Positions 61,740 to 64,000 of a stretch of DNA of 64,000 nt are shown one piece after another. Under the pieces are notes generated by a model that was not told the DNA's origin, did no database searches, and worked only from the letters and a program-made list of their open reading frames with translations. Position numbers and translations under genes: made by a program. This DNA comes from an uncultured Pelagibacteraceae bacterium (lineage in GTDB: Bacteria > Pseudomonadota > Alphaproteobacteria > Pelagibacterales > Pelagibacteraceae). Position 1 is the stretch's first letter. The number at the start of each line of letters is the position of its first letter. The stretch spans positions 248,001 through 312,000 of the forward strand of contig CACKGF010000001.1 of NCBI GenBank assembly GCA_902599625.1, in the 5' to 3' direction.

Positions 61740-62447
61740 ATGATAACAATTTTACTAACTTTTGTTCCATCAATAGTTTTATTATTATATTTTACATTAT
61801 CCGATAGATTTAAAGAGCCTAGAGGAACAGTTTTGTTAATTTTTTTTCTGGGCTTTTTAATATGCTTACCTGCAGGAATTTTAAATGGTTTAAGTCATGA
61901 CTTTTTTTATGATGGATCAAAATATTCAGAAAATCTAACTAGTAGTTTTTTAGGTCCTGCTTGGGCTGAGGAATTATTAAAATTTTCAATTCTTTATTTG
62001 ATAGTTTTGAAAAGAAATGAATTTAATGAACCCATGGATGGCTTAGTTTATGGTGTTGTTGTTTCACTAGGTTTTGCAACGTACGAAAACTATACTTATG
62101 TGTATCAGTGGGCAGAAATAATAGCCAAAGAGGAAAATATTAATTTTGCCGAATTTTCATATCTAGTTGCATTAGGAAGGTCTTATTCAGCTATTCCAAT
62201 GCATGGTTTTAACGGTGCGGTAATGGGATATTATTTCGGAATGTATGCTTTTACCGGTAATAAAAAATTTCTTATTTTTTCTTTAGCATTACCATACTTG
62301 TTTCATGGTTTTTATAACTTTCTTGTATGGCCAAATCCAATGATTATAATTGGAATTTTAGTTATTTTTTCTTTTTATTTACATTTGGAATTGAAGAAAA
62401 AACAAAAATTTAAAAAGAATGAAAAGGAAATTAAAGTAATAAAATAA
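61740..62447 (+). CDS. PrsW-family intramembrane metalloprotease-like protein
   Basis: A 235-residue protein with about eight membrane helices. PAWAEELLKFSIL near residue 74 (Glu77-Glu78), GFATYENYTYV near 111 (Glu116), MHGFNGAVMGYYFG near 154 (His155) and FHGFYNF near 190 supply the EExxK, E-N and two His positions that define the PrsW family. In Bacillus PrsW starts cleavage of an anti-sigma factor. Other members have unknown substrates. It is the first of three consecutive forward genes. The next starts after three bases. Confidence 0.82.
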   Translation: MITILLTFVPSIVLLLYFTLSDRFKEPRGTVLLIFFLGFLICLPAGILNGLSHDFFYDGSKYSENLTSSFLGPAWAEELLKFSILYLIVLKRNEFNEPMDGLVYGVVVSLGFATYENYTYVYQWAEIIAKEENINFAEFSYLVALGRSYSAIPMHGFNGAVMGYYFGMYAFTGNKKFLIFSLALPYLFHGFYNFLVWPNPMIIIGILVIFSFYLHLELKKKQKFKKNEKEIKVIK

Positions 62448-62450
62448 AAA

Positions 62451-63290
62451 ATGTATAGATTTTTTTTATTTAGGTTTTCTTTTTTGTCAATTAAGCAATT
62501 AGTAAATTCTAAAGTAAATATAATAATAAATTTATCAATATTTGTTATAATATTCGCATTAACAGTATCTTTCATTTCTATATTGTTCGAAAATAGAATC
62601 GAAAAACTCGAAACAAAAATAACTAAAAATGAAATAAATCAAATCTTATATACAAAGTGGTTAAATCGATCACCAAAAATTATTAATCAAATAGATAATG
62701 TATATAGATATAGAAATGAGGAAAAATTATTTCAATTAATGATTACATCACTTCCTACTAAATCAATAGTTTCGAAGAGAGAGCTACATTACAATCCTTA
62801 TTTTTTTTTAAATAACTTTATAGAAATAAATTTTAAAAACATGGATTTGGCATTGACTGATGCAGTTTTATTATCTTCTTCCTTGGAGGATATTAGGGTT
62901 GTTAAAGAGCAAAAGTTAATTCTTTTTAATTTGTTAAAAAAATTTGATAAAAATACGTTTGAACAATTAAAATATCAAGATAGCAAACCAGATAAAACTT
63001 TCGAAGAGGATCAAATATTCTATTCAGGTTATGAGAAATATAATGAAGTAAATTCAGAAATTATCAATGAGCAAAATCTTTTTTTTTTAAATTTTGTTTC
63101 TCCCTTTTTTTCAAAAAAAAGAGAATTCTATAACAAACAAAATGTTTCTTACTTAAATGAAATAAATGAATTTGGCAGATTAGAGACAATCTTTATATTT
63201 TGTGCTTTTCTAATTCAATTTACGATTTTTATTATTTTGCAAATATTTGAAATTACAGTTGAGAGAGATAGAAGAAATGAGAAGAACTAA
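62451..63290 (+). CDS. Unrecognised two-helix membrane protein
   Basis: A 279-residue protein with a membrane helix at about 22-45 and another at about 248-270, enclosing some 200 residues likely outside the cytoplasm. The enclosed part is rich in Lys, Asn, Glu and Phe and is probably helical. No cysteines are seen in it and I recognise no motif. It starts three bases after the PrsW-like gene and overlaps the following gene by 14 bases, so the three are probably one operon. A receptor or a protease substrate are possible roles. Confidence 0.65.
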   Translation: MYRFFLFRFSFLSIKQLVNSKVNIIINLSIFVIIFALTVSFISILFENRIEKLETKITKNEINQILYTKWLNRSPKIINQIDNVYRYRNEEKLFQLMITSLPTKSIVSKRELHYNPYFFLNNFIEINFKNMDLALTDAVLLSSSLEDIRVVKEQKLILFNLLKKFDKNTFEQLKYQDSKPDKTFEEDQIFYSGYEKYNEVNSEIINEQNLFFLNFVSPFFSKKREFYNKQNVSYLNEINEFGRLETIFIFCAFLIQFTIFIILQIFEITVERDRRNEKN

Positions 63291-64000
63291 AAAACCTACT
63301 TCAAAGATTATTATTCTAGTAATTTTATCTGGTATATTTAATCTATTATCTTATAGTTTTGATCAACTAGTGGTCCAAGCAGAGTTGACAAATAGAAACC
63401 TTGAAAGACAATTAGTTTCGCAAAGAATAGAATTAGAAACTTTATCCTATGAAATTACAACGCTAAATGATTTAAGTTTTGATGTTATAAATTCTGCAAA
63501 TTATTTCTATAAACATTTACCTACAAATTTATATGGGTCATTAAGTTTTTTAGGTGAAAACCCTAAATCTAAATTAAAGTGGGAAAAGTTTTATAAAAAA
63601 GAGTTACAAAATAAAATCGGGAATAATTTTATAATTAAATTAGATGAATTAATAGCTTATTTTAATAATAAAACAGATGACATTGATAATATTTTTAAAT
63701 CAATTTATCCTGATCCTGTCATATATAAAAATATATTAGGTGAAAATTACTCAATTAAAGACATTAAAATAGAGCGAAATCTCTTGAAAAAATTTGATCC
63801 CTACTTCGAGGAAGACCAAAAAAAATTAAATGAAAAGGATAATGTTAATTTTGAGATATATTCAACTATATATAAGAAAATTACTGAATTTAGAAATCTT
63901 GAGTATGAATTCTATAGGTATTTACAGAAATCGGAGGGAGAATATGTTGAAAAATTTGGGTCTTTTTTAAATTTTGTTGATAAATATGCTCAAGTACAAA
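63277..64000 (+). CDS. Unrecognised membrane-anchored protein (cut by the right window edge)
   Basis: An ATG at 63277 opens a frame of 241 codons with no stop up to the window end. After a basic start comes one membrane helix (about 10-27). A long polar region follows, with heptad-like leucine/isoleucine spacing around residues 30-65 suggesting a coiled coil. It overlaps the end of the preceding gene by 14 bases in another frame and has the same general layout. The C-terminal domain, which would tell its function, lies outside the window. Confidence 0.65.
   Translation, partial: MRRTKKPTSKIIILVILSGIFNLLSYSFDQLVVQAELTNRNLERQLVSQRIELETLSYEITTLNDLSFDVINSANYFYKHLPTNLYGSLSFLGENPKSKLKWEKFYKKELQNKIGNNFIIKLDELIAYFNNKTDDIDNIFKSIYPDPVIYKNILGENYSIKDIKIERNLLKKFDPYFEEDQKKLNEKDNVNFEIYSTIYKKITEFRNLEYEFYRYLQKSEGEYVEKFGSFLNFVDKYAQVQ

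Follow-up and report, generated by a model that had tools for sequence, protein, structure and literature searches.

A PrsW protease gene beside a two-gene membrane protein pair, and the exchange of this pair with a ligand-gated channel gene in SAR11 bacteria

The PrsW gene and the membrane protein pair A-B

The genes described here lie at the right end of a 64,000-nucleotide stretch (positions 248,001-312,000) of contig CACKGF010000001.1 (the window, by which the whole stretch is meant) from an uncultured Pelagibacteraceae bacterium, whose genome (GCA_902599625.1) comprises 1.08 Mb and is given as 93% complete. Re-reading of the open reading frames confirmed three forward genes at positions 61740-64000, namely a gene for a PrsW-family intramembrane protease (61740..62447, 235 aa), followed after a gap of 3 bases by gene A (62451..63290, 279 aa) and, overlapping A by 14 bases, by gene B (278 aa). 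B starts with the ATG at 63277, a TTG at 63247 being only the mechanical first start; it fills the rest of the window (63277..64000) and runs 113 bases beyond it, with its true end at the window equivalent of 64113. This corresponds to position 9114 of L002, the extended contig of the same genome (window position = L002 position + 54999). A preliminary description of this DNA had listed the same three genes with the same gap and overlap, and the extension to the right that it proposed completed B: the part outside the window ends in a second membrane helix, and there is no hidden additional C-terminal domain.

The assignment of the first gene product to the PrsW intramembrane proteases, already made in that description, is upheld by the Pfam model PF13367 (113.1 bits at a cut-off of 23.5, E=1.5e-32); the NCBIfam PrsW equivalog model NF033739 gave 112.5 bits, short of the 225 required, and the protein is thus a member of the family and not an equivalog. 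EExxK, FxxxE and two histidines constitute what we take to be the PrsW motif set, and all motifs are intact (E77-E78-x-x-K81, F112-x-x-x-E116, H155, H189-x-x-x-N193) and kept in 20 of 20 aligned sequences, i.e. in the window PrsW and 19 close relatives (the alignment left out locus L126, described below). Four conserved motifs are mentioned for the family in PMC3482391. Most named relatives of the window PrsW come from Pelagibacteraceae (SAR11), and a sequence search of solved structures found no PrsW relative.

A and B form a genuine two-gene unit. Iterated profile searches found their relatives in the same gene order in other SAR11 genomes, the stop codon of A and the start codon of B overlap in all 18 pairs read (by 4 bases in 13 of them, by 14 bases in the window), and dN/dS (ratio of non-synonymous to synonymous substitution rates) was 0.065-0.372 across eight comparisons, covering A and B in four locus pairs, which indicates purifying selection. 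The distances of A and B correlate with r=0.94 (permutation p 0.0002), r being a blunt measure here because most A distances are saturated, with most A identities at 18-31%. The correlation with PrsW is weak, both for A (r=0.32, p 0.0008) and for B (r=0.30, p 0.0022). These values refer to the 15 of 21 loaded loci that have A, B and PrsW, the other six missing one gene; for L109 and L114, the values were obtained with the convergent pair located distally in the locus. Spurious members of the first profile round were left out by hand from later alignments, namely 63-aa frames in L044 and L045 as well as the sequences of L073 and L074, which have no transmembrane (TM) helices. An A match within an 890-aa frame in genome G109 was dropped, as was a partial B match in G616 (E=8.4e-4); a class-wide search with B gave matches in 2 of 289 genomes, which were the window genome and this dropped G616.

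Both proteins carry a membrane helix at either end and an ectodomain in between, as judged from hydropathy and from the long end helices in AlphaFold models. The preliminary description had seen an N-terminal helix followed by a long external or coiled-coil region; the helix and a helical ectodomain hold true, but the anchoring at a single end does not, as a second TM helix is present at the C-terminal end. In A, an N-terminal tail is followed by TM1 (~28-46), the helical ectodomain (~47-246), TM2 (~247-266) and a short C-terminal tail, and B has TM1 at ~11-29, a helical ectodomain and TM2 at ~247-266. The membrane helices are the better conserved parts: in A, TM1 and TM2 reach 3.19 and 3.15 bits versus 1.84 bits in the ectodomain, and in B 2.85 and 3.37 versus 1.70 bits, calculated for 14 A and 17 B proteins of <=70% identity. 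Gappy columns counted as 0 in this calculation, and the ectodomain values are lowered by this. Conserved residues of A are F31, A36, I42 and E47 in or near TM1, and I249, F253, Q256, F260, Q264 and E267 in or just after TM2, with Q256 and Q264 in TM2 and the directly following E267 invariant in the 19-member alignment. Those of B are D29, Q30, R40, L249, Q255, L265 and F266, all but L249 being invariant in the 21-member alignment, with Q255, L265 and F266 in TM2. The conserved TM2 residues cluster on one helical face (A p=0.0004, B p=0.0002); for TM1, the same test gave p=0.41 for A and p=0.02 for B. The conserved glutamine in TM2 of both proteins raised the possibility that A and B are paralogues, for which a profile-profile comparison gave no support (probability about 1%, E=0.057). 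Lysine and arginine are more frequent in the tails than in the ectodomain flanks (per residue, 0.22 and 0.30 versus 0.15 and 0.20 in A; 0.39 and 0.26 versus 0.17 and 0.19 in B), and the tails are therefore likely on the cytoplasmic side, with the N-terminal tail of A pointing only weakly to this orientation. Structure prediction, another proposal of the preliminary description, resulted in all-helical models in which long end helices extend from the membrane into the ectodomain and the helical middle is poorly predicted (AlphaFold mean predicted local distance difference test values of 71.1 for A and 65.7 for B, from 11-row alignments).

As far as the searches reach, A and B belong to families that are not listed. 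No Pfam or NCBIfam model was matched over its cut-off by the window proteins, PHROGs and PADLOC gave no match at E<=0.1, and when 19 A and 21 B proteins were compared to Pfam at E<=0.1, no family matched more than 2 of the 19 A or more than 1 of the 21 B proteins. The scattered matches (CoV_S2, Sigma_reg_N, FliP and others, best E=0.0011) were rejected as chance similarities of membrane helices and coiled coils. Foldseek gave no match at E<=0.001 with the models of A and B, and the best VIA-align score (A only) was Z 10.7, which is below the ~13 expected for long helices. The fold searches retrieved only generic long helices, such as BAR domains, SMC arms, dynein stalks and chemoreceptor stalks, and when solved structures were searched with profiles, A had no match and the matches of B were mostly coiled coils; no family is excluded by these negative results. 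Relatives were detected neither in viral contigs and plasmids (A) nor in viral contigs and phages (B), in searches that reach mainly close relatives.

Linkage to PrsW and exchange with ligand-gated channel genes

Is the neighborhood of PrsW and A-B a general one? In a survey of 297 Pelagibacterales genomes, which we take as the same set for the PrsW, A, B and channel searches, PrsW was found over cut-off in 32 genomes (33 loci, of which 32 were read), and A-B in 12 (B in all 12, A in 11 of these), 10 of which have PrsW. This co-occurrence is significant by Fisher's test (p=3e-9; 2e-7 with one trio collapsed, which is the only correction for kinship). A genus search with A only found A in 9 of 329 genomes, some of which are common to the 297-genome set, so that 17 genomes result in total. 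Three of them (G156, G261, G056) have a truncated locus, in which the contig ends either inside A or upstream of it; G056 has PrsW >5 kb off on the other side, and G156 and G261 have none. In the other 14 genomes the upstream flank is intact, and in 13 of these PrsW lies <=2 kb from A, immediately upstream of A in 10 and one gene away in 3 (G176, G207 and G294, two of them divergent). Genomes found without the help of PrsW number five, with PrsW adjacent in four (G362, G654, G674, G762) and not in G008. Co-occurrence with PrsW, which the preliminary description had wished to see checked, is thus borne out, and neither of the two outcomes that it had named as contrary to its proposal came about: the pairs do not occur mostly without PrsW, and the C-terminus of B reveals no unrelated function. 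No paper describing a linkage of PrsW with A-B or with channels was found in the literature searched, and we make no wider claim.

It could be argued that A-B is just one of many genes that pass through the variable islands of SAR11 genomes, and that it lies close to PrsW for no functional reason. The distribution of both is indeed patchy (PrsW in 32 and A-B in 12 of 297 genomes), they co-vary weakly, only four adjacent pairs were found without PrsW help, and the pair of G008 is distant. However, the adjacent PrsW proteins are deeply different, diverging to ~27% identity, and the 20 loci are spread over 10 neighborhood groups by shared flanking genes, only one of which (L071, in G008) is without PrsW, with short flanks limiting the grouping. 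We therefore regard such hitchhiking as improbable. As an example of a different setting, the pair of L145 sits after lon and before nuo genes, as assigned by eye.

A-B is only one of several contents found next to PrsW. In a set of 27 loci with PrsW relatives, several of which are from the same genomes as in the survey (e.g. L108=L061, L116=L060, L118=L062) and which were not added to its counts, PrsW is followed by a channel gene, by A-B, by A-B and a Sel1-like gene, directly by a DUF805 gene, or by other genes. Some of these loci continue with DUF805, then either an amine-oxidase-like gene and a second channel gene or a convergent A-B pair, and then a gene of 168 aa. The exchange can be followed at the DNA level in L115 (AG-325-B10), which is collinear with L002 1232-7431 at 87.6% identity, with the match ending within the last PrsW codons, and again from L002 10380 onwards at 92.6%, just before DUF805. 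Between these collinear blocks L002 has A-B-Sel1 and L115 has a single gene of 516 aa. The product of this gene scored 540 bits with a profile of the channel-like PrsW neighbors and 9.8e-5, below cut-off, with Pfam Neur_chan_memb; a shorter channel paralogue in L058 passed the cut-off of Neur_chan_LBD (38.2 bits, cut-off 26), and a member of the channel set in L061 matched GLIC structures at 4.5e-23. By this homology and its four C-terminal TM helices, the gene that replaces A-B in L115 is classified as a GLIC-like ligand-gated channel. A PDZ-like N-terminal domain of the channels, suspected by eye, was supported neither by Pfam nor by solved structures.

Of the 32 PrsW loci that were read, 12 have a channel gene adjoining PrsW and 9 have A-B nearby, the other 23 having no adjacent A-B. 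The channel profile (E<=1e-10) found 29 of the 297 genomes, 16 of these with PrsW over cut-off and 12 with PrsW adjacent; as 10 of these 12 supplied profile rows, the figure is biased towards PrsW, and among the 19 other genomes 2 have it adjacent. In the text searched of a 2004 survey of bacterial channels (PMC549065), the word "protease" does not appear. Very similar PrsW proteins can stand beside very different A proteins, with 89% versus 23% identity in L002/L107 and 94% versus 24% in L060/L117. Four loci (L108=L061, L110, L111=L056 and L113=L058) combine PrsW, a GLIC-like channel, DUF805, an amine-oxidase-like protein and a second channel. The amine-oxidase-like protein of L061 matches Pfam Amino_oxidase at 6.7e-44 and has a Tat-like start by eye, and a channel next to an enzyme potentially capable of destroying amine ligands is a striking pairing. 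The contig CAJWIN010000025.1 (L126), from a gammaproteobacterial metagenome-assembled genome, encodes a PrsW that is 41% identical to that of the window, followed by a 514-aa protein that matches the channel profile with 301 bits, and because of this the link between PrsW and channels may extend beyond SAR11. L109 has a B-like frame of 75 aa (48 bits) between PrsW and DUF805, perhaps a remnant of a lost A-B pair, and in L060 and L107 two A-B pairs of different types face each other within one locus.

The constant PrsW with its exchangeable downstream partners also calls to mind conflict or defense modules, in which the cassettes would be variable membrane effectors or exclusion proteins, comparable to polymorphic systems in which exchangeable toxin domains are fused to PrsW; PMC3482391 describes PrsW as N-terminal part of such toxins, and restriction-modification and HerA-like genes are found nearby. 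On the other hand, no defense model and no phage family of known function matches A, B or the Sel1-like protein of the window, the ligand-gated channels that share the slot are receptors and not known toxins, A and B are under purifying selection, and the viral, phage and plasmid searches made found no relatives. We consider this explanation to be very improbable.

A possible receptor and the role of PrsW

Our preferred reading, held with somewhat more doubt than conviction, is that A and B together form a heteromeric inner-membrane receptor, possibly channel-like, that is carried on an exchangeable cassette and is processed or cleared by PrsW. A and B would be two subunits of one complex, each crossing the membrane twice and each exposing a variable, mostly helical ectodomain on the outside, and the membrane helices, with their conserved faces that carry glutamines, would provide the contacts between the subunits or form the lining of a path across the membrane. 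With the probably secreted Sel1-like protein, where present, the pair would constitute the receptor cassette; the constants of the locus in this branch are PrsW, the DUF805 membrane protein and the 168-aa border gene, while the contents of the slot vary. The substrate of PrsW would then most likely be the receptor that happens to occupy the slot, or else the secreted partner of this receptor, with PrsW serving in maturation, shut-off or turnover and not as site-1 protease for an anti-sigma factor. The Sel1-like protein may be a periplasmic regulator, by analogy with the ExoR-ExoS system. The binding of A to B, their orientation, the sensing and a cleavage of A or B by PrsW are what we infer from the observations. 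A "receptor pair" had been one of two suggestions of the preliminary description, and it fits the anatomy as well as the exchange of the slot with a ligand-gated channel gene.

Several points weigh against such a receptor. A and B have no fold or sequence relative with known function, and the term receptor rests on anatomy and context. The ectodomain models are poor, and there is almost no cytoplasmic part, which leaves the signal output unexplained: in place of a chemoreceptor-like cytoplasmic signaling domain after TM2, A and B show short tails only. An exchange at one place is no more than suggestive of a shared function, and there are loci in which both PrsW and A are alike, with 82% and 61% identity, respectively, in L002/L117, 81% and 73% in L060/L107, and 82-86% and 42-59% in L046/L048/L050. 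Of the loci checked, only three (L002, L117 and L104) have Sel1 after A-B. The pair of G008 is ~42 kb away from the nearest PrsW, and of the 13 genomes with adjacent PrsW, 9 are the window genome or were first found via PrsW and supplied profile rows; as nearly all A profile rows come from loci found through PrsW, the linkage counts lean to PrsW. To these adds the above-mentioned saturation of the A distances.

What alternatives exist for the role of PrsW? PrsW systems are known from the sigma-factor route, and a cascade of PrsW, an anti-sigma factor and a sigma factor of the extracytoplasmic function (ECF) type is unlikely here, because the only sigma genes found are RpoD- and RpoH-like. These two matches of the sigma-70 region-2 model, assigned by eye, include an RpoD-like gene that is cut by a contig start; an ECF-like sigma gene was not found in the 93% complete genome and could possibly lie in the remaining 7%. 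Among the 19 A and 21 B proteins compared to Pfam, no anti-sigma domain was over cut-off, the anti-sigma families not having been searched genome-wide, and one of the 19 A proteins has a sub-threshold Sigma_reg_N match (E=0.0011) that looks like chance.

PrsW could nevertheless have A and/or B as its dedicated substrates, in a cascade of regulated intramembrane proteolysis in which an outside signal leads to the cut and the released piece or the loss of the complex serves as signal. The closeness of A-B to PrsW and the intact PrsW motifs are compatible with this, as is the Bacillus PrsW, which, according to PMC3498285, is the site-1 protease for the anti-sigma factor RsiW, site-1 cuts being extracytoplasmic; the single Sigma_reg_N match could be read in the same way. 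However, A and B track each other and PrsW only weakly (r ~0.3), a nearly identical PrsW adjoins the channel cassette, 23 of 32 PrsW loci have no adjacent A-B, A and B lack a cytoplasmic domain to carry the signal, and the sigma genes found in the 93% complete genome are limited to RpoD- and RpoH-like ones. Of the "protease targets" that the preliminary description had suggested as an alternative to a receptor pair, a target as such is possible, and the dedicated target is weakened to a degree that makes it rather unlikely.

The receptor reading can also be taken further. A-B may represent a new class of heteromeric ligand-gated receptors or channels with subunits of two TM helices and variable ectodomains, swapped with pentameric channels in a dedicated slot, and PrsW may be a general control protease for these receptors of environmental signals. 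We regard this wider proposal as unlikely, and A-B does not have the features of the pentameric ligand-gated channels themselves: in place of a beta-rich ligand-binding domain and four TM helices, there are two TM helices, all-helical models of partly low confidence, and no Pfam match.

The receptor proposed here can be compared to several known systems. With PrsW/RsiW/sigma-W of Bacillus subtilis it shares the protease family and a membrane-protein partner that has an extracytoplasmic portion, but no ECF-like sigma gene was found here and the partners are a pair with two TM helices each or a ligand-gated channel. The pentameric channels GLIC and ELIC are likewise membrane proteins with a large ectodomain, and a channel of this kind occupies the same PrsW-DUF805 slot in a close relative, whereas A and B each have two TM helices, their ectodomains are helical, and neither matches channels in sequence. 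The biological role of bacterial ligand-gated channels is called unknown in PMC4795631. ExoR is described in PMC4550343 as a Sel1-repeat periplasmic regulator of the membrane sensor ExoS that is itself cleaved, and the likeness, by analogy only, consists in a Sel1-like protein beside membrane proteins with two TM helices and a protease gene; A and B differ by having no kinase or cytoplasmic output domain, and only part of the A-B loci contain Sel1. The PrsW polymorphic toxin systems (PMC3482391) also combine a constant PrsW with an exchangeable downstream part, but here the genes are separate and encode membrane proteins, and no toxin domain was found. The parts of the locus work along known lines, and what is new are the families and the exchange, as neither A and B as families nor a channel exchange beside PrsW was found in the databases and the literature searched.

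SAR11 bacteria are among the most abundant cells of the ocean and are known for few signaling genes. If the proposal is correct, the combination of a fixed protease with a slot for exchangeable receptors would reveal how these bacteria come to differ in what they sense, PrsW would gain a role that does not involve sigma factors and a partner system beyond anti-sigma factors and toxins, and the bacterial ligand-gated channels would be placed in a testable genetic setting.

Neighboring genes

Downstream of B, on the same strand, a gene for a Sel1-like protein of 411 aa (L002 9107-10342) overlaps B by 8 bases. The protein scored 28.8 bits with Pfam Sel1, below the cut-off of 30.7, and matched solved Sel1 proteins at 2e-14; its counterpart in L104 passes the Pfam cut-off with 57.6 bits. 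Judged by its hydrophobic start, the Sel1-like protein is probably secreted. It is followed by the gene for the DUF805 membrane protein (L002 10403-10777, 124 aa, same strand) and, on the opposite strand, by the border gene (L002 10780-11286, 168 aa). Border genes of 168-176 aa are also present in L104, L107, L108, L110, L111 and L113-L117, and mark the far border of the exchangeable locus. The border gene product scored 25 bits with the model of the phage regulator CII (CP76), just below the cut-off of 26.

Beyond the border, L002:11954-17029 encodes in a row a PD-(D/E)XK nuclease, a zinc-finger protein, a weakly NurA-like protein (under cut-off) and a HerA-like ATPase, possibly a DNA-processing or defense cluster. 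Directly thereafter, at L002:17033-18626, a nuclease-like gene (HNH by eye, with a match to the REase_II model) overlaps a gene for a DNA cytosine methyltransferase, and the two are probably a restriction-modification pair. In other PrsW loci, DUF2167-like genes are neighbors: a longer type of PrsW (262-272 aa) directly follows a DUF2167-like protein in L046, L050, L051, L053 and L144, assigned by Pfam for L046 and by similarity for the other four, and in L118, L119 and L125 DUF2167-like genes lie divergently upstream of PrsW.

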